From the NCBI RefSeq assembly GCF_025352015.1, contig NZ_JANXUG010000088.1, forward strand, positions 37,295 through 101,294: DNA of 64,000 bases, given 5' to 3'. Within the stretch, counting starts at the first letter, position 1. The number at the start of each line of letters is the position of its first letter. The DNA comes from Flavobacterium sp. (GTDB lineage: Bacteria > Bacteroidota > Bacteroidia > Flavobacteriales > Flavobacteriaceae). Made by a program: the position numbers and the translations under genes. A model generated the notes under the pieces. That model saw only the letters and a program-made list of their open reading frames with translations, had not been told where the DNA came from and did not search any database. Shown here in pieces: positions 18,389 to 37,385 of the stretch.

Positions 18389-18509
18389 ACTCCGATTGTT
18401 TATGTCGGCAAAAGTACTAGTTTTTTTTAAAAAACCGTTTTATTGCATTTTTTTCACGATGATTGACTCATTTTAATATCCAACTCTGATACAAAAGACT
18501 ACAACTCAC

Positions 18510-18565
18510 TAGCCCCGATTGCAGCGGTTACCATGTAACGCGGAAAGCGGGAACTCGGATTCCAA
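18510..18565 (+). repeat. Intergenic structured element copy 2 (TAGCCCCGAT...GCGGGAA)
   Basis: tagccccgattgcagcggttaccatgtaacgcggaaagcgggaactcggatt; see copy at 8226-8280. Confidence 0.75.
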
Positions 18566-18648: not shown

Positions 18649-18693
18649 TTGCCCCGATGAATCGGAAATGATAATGAAGAACATTATATAAGA

Positions 18694-18712
18694 TACTGAA
18701 ATAAATTCAGCA
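18694..18712 (+). repeat. CTGAA-N5-TTCAG palindrome immediately upstream of miaB start
   Basis: gaTACTGAA-ATAAA-TTCAGCAtaaATGG. Confidence 0.7.
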
Positions 18713-18715
18713 TAA

Positions 18716-20164
18716 ATGGAAAAGGAAATTAATGAGCAAAAGCAAGGTAGCAGTCTTGTTTTGGAGCCTAAAAAAGAAAATACCAAAAAACTATTTATAG
18801 AAAGTTATGGCTGCGCGATGAATTTTTCGGACAGTGAAGTAGTCGCTTCTATATTAACCAACCAAGGATATAATACAACAACTGTATTGGAAGAAGCCGA
18901 TCTGGTTTTAGTAAATACCTGTTCCATTCGGGACAAAGCAGAGCAAACGGTGCGAAAGCGCTTGGAAAAATACAATGCGGTAAAACGAGAAGTGAATCCG
19001 AATATGAAAGTGGGCGTTCTGGGTTGTATGGCGGAACGGTTGAAAGAAAAATTTCTGGACGAAGAAAAAATTGTCGATATGGTTGTTGGACCTGACTCCT
19101 ACAAGGATTTACCCAACTTATTGCAGGAAGTTGAACAAGGCAGAGATGCCATCAATGTAATTTTATCGAAAGAAGAAACTTATGGTGATATTTCCCCCGT
19201 GCGACTGATGAGCAATGGTGTGACCGCTTTAGTATCGATTACACGCGGATGCGATAATATGTGTACGTTTTGTGTGGTGCCTTTTACCCGCGGACGTGAA
19301 CGCAGTCGTGAACCGCAAAGCATACTTTCGGAAATTAAAGATTTATGGAACAATGGCTTTAAAGAAGTAACGCTTTTGGGTCAGAATGTAGATAGTTATC
19401 TTTGGTATGGTGGTGGTTTGAAAAAAGATTTTGAAAAGGCTACTGAAATACAACAAGCTTCAGCGGTTGGATTTGACCAATTGTTGGAAATGACGGCGGT
19501 TCAATTCCCGAAGATGCGGATTCGTTTTTCGACTTCCAATCCGCAGGATATGCATGAAGAAGTATTGCATATAATTGCCAAATATCCTAATGTGTGCAAA
19601 CATGTTCACTTGCCTGTTCAAAGCGGAAGCGACAGAATTTTAAAGGAAATGAATCGTTTGCACACAAGAGCAGAATATTTATATCTGATTAACAAAATAC
19701 ATCAAATTATCCCCGAAGTTAGCGTTACACAAGACATGATTGCCGGTTTTCCTACAGAAACAGAAACAGATCATCAAGACACTTTAAGTTTAATGGAAGC
19801 AGTGAAATATGGTTTTGGATATATGTATTCGTATTCAGAACGCCCAGGAACATTAGCAGGAAGAAAAATGAAAGATGATGTAACCGAAGAAACCAAATTA
19901 CGAAGGTTACAAGAAATAGTAGACTTACAACGGATGCACAGCGGTATCAGAACAAAAGAATTTGTTGGCAAAACCGTAGAAGTTTTAGTAGAAAAAGTTT
20001 CTAAAAAATCAGACAATGATTTATCAGGACGCAATTCACAAAGCTTTGTGGTGGTGTTTCCAAGAGAGCACTATAAGATTGGGGATTTTGTAAATGTAAA
20101 AATTACCAGTTGCACCAGCGGCACTTTGATTGGGACTGCAGTTGGGTATAGTGAAATGAATTAA
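18716..20164 (+). CDS. miaB: tRNA (N6-isopentenyl adenosine(37)-C2)-methylthiotransferase MiaB
   Basis: 'SYGCAMNFSDSEV', radical SAM 'RGCDNMCTFCVVPFTRGRERSR', TRAM domain. Confidence 0.97.
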   Translation: MEKEINEQKQGSSLVLEPKKENTKKLFIESYGCAMNFSDSEVVASILTNQGYNTTTVLEEADLVLVNTCSIRDKAEQTVRKRLEKYNAVKREVNPNMKVGVLGCMAERLKEKFLDEEKIVDMVVGPDSYKDLPNLLQEVEQGRDAINVILSKEETYGDISPVRLMSNGVTALVSITRGCDNMCTFCVVPFTRGRERSREPQSILSEIKDLWNNGFKEVTLLGQNVDSYLWYGGGLKKDFEKATEIQQASAVGFDQLLEMTAVQFPKMRIRFSTSNPQDMHEEVLHIIAKYPNVCKHVHLPVQSGSDRILKEMNRLHTRAEYLYLINKIHQIIPEVSVTQDMIAGFPTETETDHQDTLSLMEAVKYGFGYMYSYSERPGTLAGRKMKDDVTEETKLRRLQEIVDLQRMHSGIRTKEFVGKTVEVLVEKVSKKSDNDLSGRNSQSFVVVFPREHYKIGDFVNVKITSCTSGTLIGTAVGYSEMN

Positions 20165-26271: not shown

Positions 26272-26613
26272 TTACTTTCGCTCATATTGGCAGCAGGCAT
26301 GAAGTTTGTCATAAACTGCATTGGTTGCTTTTATCTCATCAGTGTCATGACCTACTTTGGCAACAGCATTTTTCACATCCACAAGTGAACATTTTTCTTC
26401 ATTGATACTAACACTCAATTGATGACTTTCGATATTCCAAACTGCTGATTTAACACCAGTGACCGAAAATGCTGCTTTCTGAATACGTTTTTGACATTGT
26501 TCGCAATTTCCATTGACTTCAAATTCGTAATGGGCATTTTTATTTTTCTTTTCTTGCGCTTGGGTTGAAAGTGCTACAAACAGCAATATCATTCTTAAAA
26601 TTGTATTTTTCAT
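26272..26613 (-). CDS. secreted heavy-metal-associated (HMA) domain protein
   Basis: Signal peptide; 'FEVNGNCEQCQKRIQKAAFSVTGVKSAVWN' CxxC fold. Confidence 0.88.
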   Translation of the reverse strand: MKNTILRMILLFVALSTQAQEKKNKNAHYEFEVNGNCEQCQKRIQKAAFSVTGVKSAVWNIESHQLSVSINEEKCSLVDVKNAVAKVGHDTDEIKATNAVYDKLHACCQYERK

Positions 26614-26652
26614 TTATGTTAAATTTAGTTCAACATCTTTCGATGTTAAATG
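26611..26652 (-). repeat. Start-codon-proximal three-arm palindromic element (HMA gene)
   Basis: Minus strand TTTAACATC-GAAA-GATGTTGAA-CTAAA-TTTAACATAAATG, filling the gap to the upstream TBDT stop. Confidence 0.7.
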
Positions 26653-28677
26653 TTATTTTTTTATTTTAAATCGTAAACCTGCATAATACATTTGTCCAAA
26701 AACTGGCGCATATATAATTGAGGTGTCAAAATTAGGTCCAAACGGATTATTATTGCCCAAAATAGCTTTGTTTTGACGGTAGTTTCCAATGTTTTCTCCA
26801 CCAATATATACTTCAAAGGTACTCGAAAAAGTTCGGGTAATTTGCGCATTCATTATACTAAATGAAGGTGAAAATTCAGGCAATCTATCTTGTGCAGGAT
26901 TGCTTGCAGTATTGGGCAACTGCTGTTTTCCTAACCAATTAAAGGTGTAATCAAATTTCCATTGCTGTCCTTTTTCGGCGATATGGGTTTCATATTCTAA
27001 ATTACCAAAAAAACGATGTTTGGCTTGTAATGGTCTTTGAAAACTTCCCGAAAGATAATCGGTGGCAATGTCATAATATTTATAAGCGGTTCTTAAATTC
27101 AAATGTTTGATAATTTCTAAATTAAAATCTATTTGAAAACTATTTGCAAACGATTTTCCTCTTAAATTATAGAACAAAACTTGTTGTGGCGAATTCATAA
27201 TATCTACTACGGCTTGGTTTTGAAAATCAGTGCGATAAAAATCAAGTGTTACATCGGCACTTTTGCCAAATAACAAAAAATTTTGAGTAAAACTCAAGCC
27301 ATAATTCCATGCTATTTCGGGATTTAAACCATAAACTTTTCCATTTGTATCTAAAACTTGAAAGGTTCTAGAACTCGCAAACAAATTTTGATTTTCGGCA
27401 TAGATATTAGCCGCACGTTTTCCTCTTCCGGCAGAAAATCGCAACACCGCTTTCTCCCAAGGATTGTATTTTATGTGTAATCTTGGTGTGAAAAAAGCGC
27501 CTAACCTGTTGTGATAATCAAATCGCCCACCAAGTATATAACTGAACTTATCGCCGTTATCATAGGTATATTCAAAGAAAGCTCCAACAGAATTGTCAAT
27601 TCGGCTAACATCAGCAAGGTTAACAAACTCCAAGTATTTATCATACGTAAAGTTCAATCCCGTAGCAAACTTATGCATTGTATTGCTTATAATTGAATTG
27701 AAAATCAGGTTCGAATAATAGCTTTGTTGTTTGATGTTGTATTGATTCAAACCAAAATACGATAACTGATTGTGATTACTGAAAGCATTTTGGAAACCAA
27801 TACTTTGAAACGGCATGTCCTTGAAAACATAACCTACTTTGGAAGTGAAATCTAATCGTTCTGTATTGATTTCAGAACCCCAATAATTTGTTGTTAATCT
27901 ATCTCTGCTTGGCTCAAAATTGAGTTCCCCAGTTTGCTTATCGTCTTTCATAAAACGAAGGTTCAAAAACGAAACCCATCCCGTTTTTGGATTAGAATAC
28001 TGCCAACGGTTGGCTATATTAATTTGTTTTCCCAATGGGTTATCAAGAAAACCATCGTTATTCATATCGGTTTTAGCAACTCGTGCATTCCCATGCACAA
28101 ACAAACTTGACGACCAATAATCAGAAACTTTTTTGTTAAAATGCGTATTCAGTTCAAACCGAGAATCGGTCGAGCCATATGCATTTAGGAAAAAAGGGAT
28201 GTCTTTTATAGGTTTGATCAATTCGGTATTGATTTGACCTGAAATGCTTTCGTAACCATTAACCACACTCCCCGCTCCTTTGGTGATTTGAATACTTTCT
28301 ACCCATGTTCCAGGCGTAAATGATAAACCATAAGCCTGCGATGCGCCTCGAACCGATGGAATATTTTCTTCGGTAATCATAATGTAAGGACTGGTTAAAC
28401 CTAACATTTTGATTTGTTTAGTACCCGTTAGAGCGTCCGAAAAATTGACATCAATGGAGGGATTAGTTTCAAAACTTTCTGCAAGATTACAACAGGCTGC
28501 TTTGAGTAGTTCTTTGCCAGTAACGAGCGTGGTATTTGACGTACCAGAAAGTGATTTTTTTAGTCCTTTTTTATTGGCTAAAACCTTTACCGTTTTCAAA
28601 GTATCGTGTTTAATATCTTCTTGTGAAAAGGTAACTGTCGAAACCAACAATGCAAGGTACAACATTGTGTTTTTCAT
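26653..28677 (-). CDS. TonB-dependent outer-membrane receptor
   Basis: Plug domain 'MLGLTSPYIMITEENIPSVRG', beta-barrel C-terminus 'YYAGLRFKIKK'. Confidence 0.92.
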   Translation of the reverse strand: MKNTMLYLALLVSTVTFSQEDIKHDTLKTVKVLANKKGLKKSLSGTSNTTLVTGKELLKAACCNLAESFETNPSIDVNFSDALTGTKQIKMLGLTSPYIMITEENIPSVRGASQAYGLSFTPGTWVESIQITKGAGSVVNGYESISGQINTELIKPIKDIPFFLNAYGSTDSRFELNTHFNKKVSDYWSSSLFVHGNARVAKTDMNNDGFLDNPLGKQINIANRWQYSNPKTGWVSFLNLRFMKDDKQTGELNFEPSRDRLTTNYWGSEINTERLDFTSKVGYVFKDMPFQSIGFQNAFSNHNQLSYFGLNQYNIKQQSYYSNLIFNSIISNTMHKFATGLNFTYDKYLEFVNLADVSRIDNSVGAFFEYTYDNGDKFSYILGGRFDYHNRLGAFFTPRLHIKYNPWEKAVLRFSAGRGKRAANIYAENQNLFASSRTFQVLDTNGKVYGLNPEIAWNYGLSFTQNFLLFGKSADVTLDFYRTDFQNQAVVDIMNSPQQVLFYNLRGKSFANSFQIDFNLEIIKHLNLRTAYKYYDIATDYLSGSFQRPLQAKHRFFGNLEYETHIAEKGQQWKFDYTFNWLGKQQLPNTASNPAQDRLPEFSPSFSIMNAQITRTFSSTFEVYIGGENIGNYRQNKAILGNNNPFGPNFDTSIIYAPVFGQMYYAGLRFKIKK

Positions 28678-28718
28678 TTTATGCTGAATTTATTTCAGCA
28701 TCTTTCGATACTGAAAAT
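28675..28718 (-). repeat. Start-codon-proximal three-arm palindromic element (TBDT gene)
   Basis: Minus strand TTTCAGTATC-GAAA-GATGCTGAA-ATAAA-TTCAGCATAAAATG. Confidence 0.75.
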
Positions 28719-28736
28719 GATTAATATAAATTCTAT

Positions 28737-28782
28737 TTCAATGATTCTCATAGATGTTGAGAATCTGAACTGAATTCAGATT
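28737..28782. repeat. Overlapping hairpins GATTCTCA/TGAGAATC and AATCTGAA-CTGAA-TTCAGATT
   Basis: Both inverted repeats perfect (8 bp each), sharing AATC; in the HYC_CC_PP-TBDT gap. Confidence 0.75.
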
Positions 28783-28785
28783 AAA

Positions 28786-30832: not shown

Positions 30833-30862
30833 TTGCCTAATCAAAAAAGAAAATTATCTTTG
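30833..30862 (+). promoter_or_regulatory. rpsO promoter TTG-N19-TATCTTTG
   Basis: -33 TTG at 30833-30835 and -7 TATCTTTG at 30855-30862. Confidence 0.7.
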
Positions 30863-30919
30863 CACTCGAATTGAGAAAGCCTTGATTCATACATAATAAT
30901 CATTTAAAATAATATTGGA

Positions 30920-31189
30920 ATGTATTTAAGTAAAGAAACAAAATCTGAAATCTTCGCTAAACACGGAGGAAAAGCTGAAAACACAGGATCTGCAGAAGGG
31001 CAAATCGCATTGTTCACGCACAGAATTACTCATTTGACAGAGCACTTGAAAAAAAATCGTCACGATTACAATACCGAGCGTTCGTTAGTACTTTTGGTTG
31101 GTAAAAGAAGAAGTCTTCTTGATTACTTGAAGAAAAAAGAGATCAACAGATATCGTGAAATAATCAAAGAATTGAATATTAGAAAATAA
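30920..31189 (+). CDS. rpsO: 30S ribosomal protein S15
   Basis: 'TGSAEGQIALFTHRITHLTEHLK', 'RSLVLLVGKRRSLLDYLKKKE'. Confidence 0.98.
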   Translation: MYLSKETKSEIFAKHGGKAENTGSAEGQIALFTHRITHLTEHLKKNRHDYNTERSLVLLVGKRRSLLDYLKKKEINRYREIIKELNIRK

Positions 31190-36563: not shown

Positions 36564-36618
36564 AAATAAAACTCCAGTCTGTTCGCTTTGCTCGAGTATC
36601 CGGAGTTTTATTTTTTTT
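36564..36618 (+). terminator. Terminator 2 (duplicated arm) upstream of rpe
   Basis: AAATAAAACTCC ... CCGGAGTTTTATTTTTTTT. Confidence 0.7.
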
Positions 36619-36639
36619 AATCTGAACTTGTTTCAGATT
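36619..36639. repeat. Palindrome AATCTGAA-CTTGT-TTCAGATT
   Basis: Perfect 8+5+8. Confidence 0.75.
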
Positions 36640-36653
36640 CTTTAATTATAATT

Positions 36654-36678: not shown

Positions 36679-36717
36679 AATTTCAGTATTATAAAGATGC
36701 TGAAATAAATTCAGCAT
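36679..36717 (+). repeat. Start-codon-proximal three-arm palindromic element (rpe)
   Basis: aaTTTCAGTATtataaagATGCTGAA-ATAAA-TTCAGCAT-aaATG. Confidence 0.75.
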
Positions 36718-36719
36718 AA

Positions 36720-37385
36720 ATGAAAAACATACTTATTGCTCCATCTGTTCTTGCTGCCGACTTTGCCAATTTGCAGCGGGACATAGAAATGATTAATAAC
36801 AGTGAAGCCGATTGGTTTCACATCGATATTATGGATGGTGTATTTGTTCCTAATATTTCTTTCGGAATGCCTGTTTTAGAAGCTATAACTAAACATGCAA
36901 AAAAAGTCATTGATGTTCATTTGATGATTGTTGATCCAGACAGATACATTAAGACTTTTGCTGATTTAGGCGCCAATATTTTGAGCGTGCACTATGAGGC
37001 ATGCACTCATTTGCACAGAACACTTCAAGCTATAAAGTCAGAAGGAATGAAGGCTGGAGTTGCTTTAAATCCGCATACGAATGTATCTTTATTGGAAGAT
37101 ATTATTACAGATATCGATATGGTTTGTATCATGAGCGTAAATCCTGGTTTTGGTGGGCAGTCCTTTATTGAAAACACGTATTCAAAAATTGAAAAACTAA
37201 AAGATTTAATTATAAAAAAAGGTACTTCTACGTGGATTGAGATTGACGGCGGAGTTACAGATAAGAATGCCAAACGATTGGTGGAAGCGGGCGCTGATAT
37301 TTTAGTGGCAGGGAATTTTGTTTTCAAGGCTGTGAATCCAACTCAAACTATAGCTAGTTTAAAGGAACTTGCTATTATAAAATAA
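36720..37385 (+). CDS. rpe: ribulose-phosphate 3-epimerase
   Basis: 'IAPSVLAADFANL', 'WFHIDIMDGVFVPNISFG', 'SVNPGFGGQSFI'. Confidence 0.97.
   Translation: MKNILIAPSVLAADFANLQRDIEMINNSEADWFHIDIMDGVFVPNISFGMPVLEAITKHAKKVIDVHLMIVDPDRYIKTFADLGANILSVHYEACTHLHRTLQAIKSEGMKAGVALNPHTNVSLLEDIITDIDMVCIMSVNPGFGGQSFIENTYSKIEKLKDLIIKKGTSTWIEIDGGVTDKNAKRLVEAGADILVAGNFVFKAVNPTQTIASLKELAIIK

Follow-up and report, generated by a model that had tools for sequence, protein, structure and literature searches.

A start-docked palindromic repeat in Flavobacterium and its competing upstream arm

Translational attenuators of the sequestor/anti-sequestor kind, such as the erm leaders, are built from three segments that form two exclusive hairpins, and in one of these the initiation region is covered. 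Transcribed MITE-like elements, such as the Correia/NEMIS repeats of Neisseria, give rise to repeat-derived hairpins in mRNAs, adjoining coding sequences. The REP/REPIN/BIME palindromes associated with RAYT transposases are short, dispersed, intergenic, arranged in inverted pairs and patchy among relatives, and REP repeats have been hypothesised to influence mRNA fate (PMC3733652, PMC3116915). In Bacteroidota, translation initiates without Shine-Dalgarno pairing. In Flavobacterium johnsoniae adenines at -12 and -13 are reported to stimulate initiation, structure between -20 and +20 is reported to lower it, and AUG is underrepresented near starts (PMC6847099).

The element described here was found in a 64,000-nucleotide stretch of Flavobacterium sp. 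DNA (the window; genome G000) and combines traits of these systems. As in the sequestor/anti-sequestor leaders, two exclusive stems share one strand and one of them lies over the initiation region; unlike for the erm leaders, a leader peptide or ligand was not found, there is no Shine-Dalgarno sequence to hide, about 46 unrelated gene families are involved, and strong and weak versions coexist. It differs from Correia/NEMIS in its unit of about 36 nt, in that no target duplication was seen, and in being docked to the AUG in one orientation. The likeness to REP/REPIN extends to the dispersed intergenic palindromes, the inverted pairs and the patchy distribution. However, the Y1 transposase (PF01797) is absent from G000, while being present in 40 of 61 genomes of the genus, and among 20 Y1_Tnp neighbourhoods in relatives the full core occurs in only one (L213), so that, this one apart, the element does not flank the transposase there, and a link to RAYT transposases was rejected. 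As to the GTAG or CGTC tag that REP/REPIN carry at one end, the right flank of the repeat reads NATAAA in G000 and NATGACA (reverse TGTCAT) in others. The AUG-docked subset with fixed spacing and an added arm is a feature of this element that is not part of the REP descriptions compared. No match was obtained among 4227 Rfam models at E <= 2, and literature searches returned nothing for the core sequence and, by topic, nothing describing a start-docked element. A metabolite riboswitch was rejected, given the lack of an Rfam match, the presence of hairpins only and the unrelated genes. The element shares its position in a gene leader with the S15-Flavobacteria ribosomal protein leader (RF03161) of the same window, which lies at 30855-30922 on the plus strand, directly before an 89-aa frame at 30920, and scores 73.7 bits, above the gathering score. 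A weak match to the Flavo-1 RNA (RF01705, E 9e-4, below gathering) was seen at 18507-18558 on the plus strand, about 160 nt upstream of miaB.

The TonB-receptor leader and other copies in the window

On the minus strand, from 28716 to 28675, the leader of a TonB-dependent receptor gene reads TTTCAGTATC-GAAA-GATGCTGAA-ATAAA-TTCAGCAT-AAA-ATG. The 36-nt leader string is unique in the window, and shuffles expect 0. It comprises the following features:

28707..28716, minus strand: arm A, TTTCAGTATC, from pairing letters and folding; retained with pairing changes in G179, G157 and G040
28706-28703, minus strand: A-B loop GAAA of the tonB leader
28694..28702, minus strand: arm B, GATGCTGAA, partner of A or of C, from pairing letters, folding and co-variation
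28689..28693, minus strand: B-C loop ATAAA, placing A at -12 and -13 from the ATG, from the letters (role of A-12/A-13 from PMC6847099)
28681..28688, minus strand: arm C, TTCAGCAT, separated from the ATG by 3 nt, from pairing letters, folding and co-variation
26653..28677, minus strand: TonB-dependent receptor gene, 674 aa, ATG at 28677-28675, directly after the leader element
28759..28785, plus strand: inverted, non-docked repeat copy upstream of the leader, core 28765-28779, from a core search; also retained in G179

The three-arm leader that the initial annotation had placed next to this ATG was thus confirmed with all arms and loops. Since arm B is common to both stems, A-B and B-C are mutually exclusive, as had been proposed, and B-C, described as ending 3-4 nt from the ATG, ends 3 nt from it. 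The A-B stem contains one U.G pair. For this leader folding predicts -10.9 kcal/mol for A-B and -9.3 kcal/mol for B-C, with P(A-B) of 0.99, and the corresponding leaders of G179, G157 and G040 give 0.97, 0.99 and 0.75, respectively. The predicted B-C stem spans about -24 to -3/-4 from the start, so that this one stem would occlude the initiation region. Within the ten most paired leaders of 46 window genes, no local hairpin ahead of the ATG is stronger than those of tonB and rpe (-9.3 kcal/mol compared with a window median of -0.2 kcal/mol). Folding favours a constitutive A-B state for the tonB leader, in which the start would be open. A thermosensor was rejected, as folding at 10, 20 and 37 C gives no inversion between A-B and B-C.

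The same element had been reported before three other genes of the window, and copies are indeed present before all three:

18693..18713, plus strand: docked miaB copy lacking arm A; B ATACTGAA and C TTCAGCAT joined by the loop ATAAA, with an A.C mismatch at N1
18716..20164, plus strand: miaB gene (TIGR01574)
26616..26650, minus strand: three-arm copy of the HMA gene; A 26650-26642 TTTAACATC, B 26637-26629 GATGTTGAA, C 26623-26616 TTTAACAT
26272..26613, minus strand: gene for an HMA-domain metallochaperone-like protein of 113 aa, the one that follows the TonB receptor gene
36616..36642, plus strand: inverted, non-docked copy of the repeat ahead of the rpe promoter, with its core at 36622-36636
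36681..36717, plus strand: three-arm rpe copy; A 36681-36689, B 36697-36704, C 36710-36717, then AA-ATG
36720..37385, plus strand: ribulose-phosphate 3-epimerase gene (rpe)

The start-proximal copies at 26613 (HMA) and 36720 (rpe) have three arms, with predicted P(A-B) of 0.94 and 0.96, respectively. The copy at 18716 (miaB) is not a three-arm element, because arm A is missing and the A.C mismatch cuts B-C to 5 bp; it folds as B-C alone, with -3.2 kcal/mol. The HMA leader, TTTAACATC-GAAA-GATGTTGAA-CTAAA-TTTAACAT-AA-ATG, uses letters other than those of the tonB copy, and its counterpart in G179 (L321) differs from it by compensating changes.

Inverted repeat copies lie 55-105 nt upstream of several docked copies (window 28765-28779 and 36622-36636; L014 1548-1562; L350, L352, L356, L373), and before DUF6495 the inverted upstream copy and the docked copy appear and disappear together. 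A single composite MITE made of both was rejected: at rpe the docked and the inverted copy lie on either side of a sequence resembling the promoter of rpe itself, so that they appear to be separate.

A dispersed repeat with a start-docked subset

The core CTGAA-N5-TTCAG occurs five times in the window, compared with 0.07 expected, and at 37 places in G000, compared with one for the reversed control. About eight of the 37 exact cores fall within long reading frames and about 29 are intergenic, in both orientations. Nine are docked, with TTCAG followed by the ATG of a real gene after 5 nt (eight copies) or 6 nt (tonB), and only four lie at 7-60 nt. Most intergenic copies of G000 are not at starts. 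The 5-6 nt spacing likewise predominates in G179, where any spacing of 2-24 nt was permitted, and in relatives it recurs before the same genes and before others. With docking defined as TTCAG, 5 nt (sometimes 6), then ATG, 112 docked copies from about 46 gene families and at least 14 species were gathered by patterns and a model, mostly from genomes rich in such copies; the families were clustered crudely from N-termini, and the counts are not independent events, because the species (and paralogues) are related. The docked genes include miaB, rpe, TonB receptor, HMA chaperone, ThiF/MoeB-like, DUF6495, Amdase-like, glycosyltransferase, wecB and DUF3098, whose functions are unrelated. The presence of one repeat at so many unrelated starts, together with the competing arm that almost always accompanies its strong docked hairpins (see below), points to a simple RNA device by which translation may be kept or set.

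Docked copies differ from the others in sequence. The loop xTAAA is found in 44 of 66 docked and 14 of 57 other intergenic copies (p = 4e-6). The N1 pair is retained in 28/66 docked compared with 50/57 non-docked copies (p = 2e-7), or, for copies found without fixing N1, in 14/31 compared with 35/38 (p = 3e-5). Adenine is present at -12 in 111 and at -13 in 102 of the 112 docked copies, compared with 19 and 21, respectively, of 37 other window genes. The favourable A at -3/-6 is usually missing, with T at -3 and G at -6 being usual, so that the docked leader may be weak overall.

Occupancy varies between species, and the leader of one and the same gene can be filled in some and empty in near relatives. 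Among the readable tonB leaders of the 30 closest orthologues the element is present in four, those of G000, G179, G157 and G040. G227 has it too, and relatives including G150, G220 and G102 show a related leader that lacks the element. DUF3098 leaders contain it in about 10 of 29 genomes, which were chosen for high copy number and searched with an approximate query, the matches being checked by reading the leaders. In the rpe leaders of about 43 species it is mostly absent; the closest rpe relatives of G000 bear the name Flavobacterium. Since most orthologues do without it, no gene needs the element. The same type of hairpin, or one related to it, lies 13-21 nt from the rpe ATG in Flavobacterium sandaracinum, fryxellicola, xanthum, weaverense and frigoris (L091, L093, L094, L098, L127). 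Copies of rpe 80-87% identical to that of G000 were also seen on contigs from metagenome bins titled Lentimicrobium, Rhizobium, Chlorobiota and Rhodobacteraceae (L100, L103, L117, L142), which, given this identity to a Flavobacterium gene, are probably contaminated.

Arm A and the strength of the docked hairpin

Docked copies were classed as strong, with a full 8-bp B-C stem, or weak, with B-C weakened, mostly by an A.C mismatch. An upstream arm was scored for at least six contiguous pairs including N1, a criterion set on a first set of copies and held on a second. In the first set the arm is present in 26/27 strong docked (the exception being L290), 5/39 weak docked and 5/36 strong non-docked copies, and shuffled upstream sequence gives it in 2.2/27 on average, with a maximum of 6. 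For the second set, 14 genomes were searched with a covariance model of B-C-ATG, and copies not seen before were fetched after the rule had been stated; the model alignment has 36 rows, two of which (GATCC..GGATAAATG) come from partial matches that only widen the model and were not counted as copies. Here arm A accompanies 16/16 strong and 2/18 weak copies, with 1.4/16 for shuffled upstream sequence. Combined, it is found in 49 of 50 strong but only 8 of 62 weak docked copies, and, counted by gene family, in 17/17 strong compared with 4/33 weak (p = 6e-10); if the core is required to be exact, 46/48 copies have it. By contrast, strong copies located 9-60 nt from a start possess the arm in only 2 of 26 cases. 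This indicates that arm A goes with hairpins that are both strong and docked and not with the repeat as such, and that the constraint on the mutually exclusive geometry is specific to start codons. Since 55 of the 112 docked copies, including that of miaB, lack arm A by the criterion used, a two-hairpin switch does not define the docked family.

Pairing is maintained while the letters change. Across an alignment of 22 TTCAG-type three-arm leaders, 97.3% of the A-B cells and 98.3% of the B-C cells are paired, compared with at most 43% for slid versions. Arms A and C change with B, and the covariation scores are reached by 5 (A-B) and 26 (B-C) of 500 shuffles. The N1 triplets A:B:C are C:G:C in nine gene families, T:G:C in five, A:T:A in five, T:A:T in four and G:T:A in one. 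Across species the A-B loop of the tonB leaders varies, and arm A swaps U.G for C-G or G.U with pairing kept. For DUF6495, whose arms are short and of the GCATC type, folding does not let arm A prevail over B-C at equilibrium in all species (L282 is an example), and such arms thus would have to act kinetically.

The balance tips slightly toward a dispersed palindromic repeat that has been taken over into the translation initiation region, with arm A as an anti-sequestor and a default state that is "on." With its arm C 2-3 nt short of the AUG, a docked repeat sets two loop adenines at -12 and -13, and a full 8-bp B-C hairpin at this place would bury the initiation region, which would account for two leader forms: one with a weakened B-C, usually by A.C at N1, and no arm A, and one with a strong B-C and an upstream arm A. 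In the latter, arm A would be transcribed first and capture B, so that the loop, arm C and the AUG stay open. A strong docked hairpin would thus be harmful to initiation and survive only with an anti-sequestor, the others surviving through a weakened B-C. Judged from the sequences and predicted folding, arm A most likely is such an anti-sequestor, keeping the initiation region open; we infer from sequence that the element acts as RNA, with B-C lowering and A-B restoring translation. Evolution seems to have repeated this experiment, a strong hairpin before the AUG being tolerated only with a competing arm and otherwise weakened. The repeat would also be a clear case of a dispersed element recruited into mRNA leaders. 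Dozens of test pairs are available where sister species differ in whether the leader of a given gene is filled or empty.

Alternative readings of the docked element

In a regulated two-state switch B would pass between A and C in response to a signal and so turn translation off or on; the signal could come from a protein that binds the RNA, from a small RNA on arm A, from processing of the leader, or from the speed of transcription or the temperature. Such a translational switch was what the initial annotation had read from the geometry, of which the exclusive stems, their constraint at start codons and the co-variation of the arms with B stand, whereas a dedicated switch finds no comparable support: the tonB element is one member of a dispersed repeat family and not a dedicated regulator, about half of the docked copies have no arm A, and neither a ligand, a signal nor a shared regulon is visible among the docked genes. 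Both hairpins are kept by compensating changes, as seen for DUF6495 (GCATC..GATGC..GCAT compared with GTATC..GATAC..GTAT in G048), for WecB (A:T:A in G000, T:A:T in G172) and for the HMA leader of G000 and G179, although loss of B-C would suffice if an open start alone mattered. Because both stems are maintained in this way and not simply lost, room is left for true regulation. Nevertheless, the docked genes have no common function, occupancy is patchy between species and folding from 10 to 37 C gives no thermal switch, so that regulated switching is doubtful. It is also unlikely that the start-docked module forms a genus-wide translational regulon, derived from a mobile palindrome and addressed in dozens of unrelated genes by a common trans-acting factor; if it did, insertion of the repeat would have spread a control device for translation that works without Shine-Dalgarno pairing.

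The copies could also be ordinary decaying mobile palindromes with no role in translation, their arm symmetry stemming from quasi-palindrome correction or gene conversion and their docking from insertion preference or tolerance. Many non-docked copies with co-varying N1, the empty and filled sites and a unit made of inverted halves fit this account, and part of the arm symmetry can arise at the DNA level. This leaves the arm A rule unexplained, however, as arm A accompanies strong copies only where they are docked, and it does not explain the fixed 5-6 nt spacing of the exact G000 cores, which makes passive decay quite improbable.

Arm A might instead mask a decoy AUG in arm B (GAUGC) that, in this genus lacking Shine-Dalgarno selection, would otherwise rival the true start. 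This reading could draw on the underrepresentation of AUG near starts (PMC6847099) and on the upstream arm being present in 20/23 docked copies with an AUG in B compared with 8/43 without. Yet arm A is also present in each of the 14 strong docked copies whose arm B contains no AUG, indicating that hairpin strength and not the AUG predicts the arm; decoy masking was accordingly rejected as the cause of arm A and is very improbable. A protein-binding DNA operator or an intrinsic terminator, as a perfect 21-bp palindrome with a 5-bp spacer might suggest, is hardly credible, since the stem letters vary with pairing kept, G.U included, no U-run follows arm C (AAAUG does) and the distance is fixed to the AUG and not to a promoter.

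Some docked or docked-looking copies depart from the usual form. In three genomes (L029 2483-2520, L068, L069) such a copy precedes a conserved 7-codon frame, ATGGAAAGCTTTTCATTGGTCTAA, where no longer gene starts and which is possibly a leader peptide or a relic. In others a second repeat (about CTCGAGCAAAGCGAACTGACGAAGT) lies inside the B-C loop (L280 at about 560-620, L286, L306), and in L274, L291 and L292 the B-C loop holds a whole second hairpin, leaving the outer GATACTGA...TTCAGCAT-AAATG.
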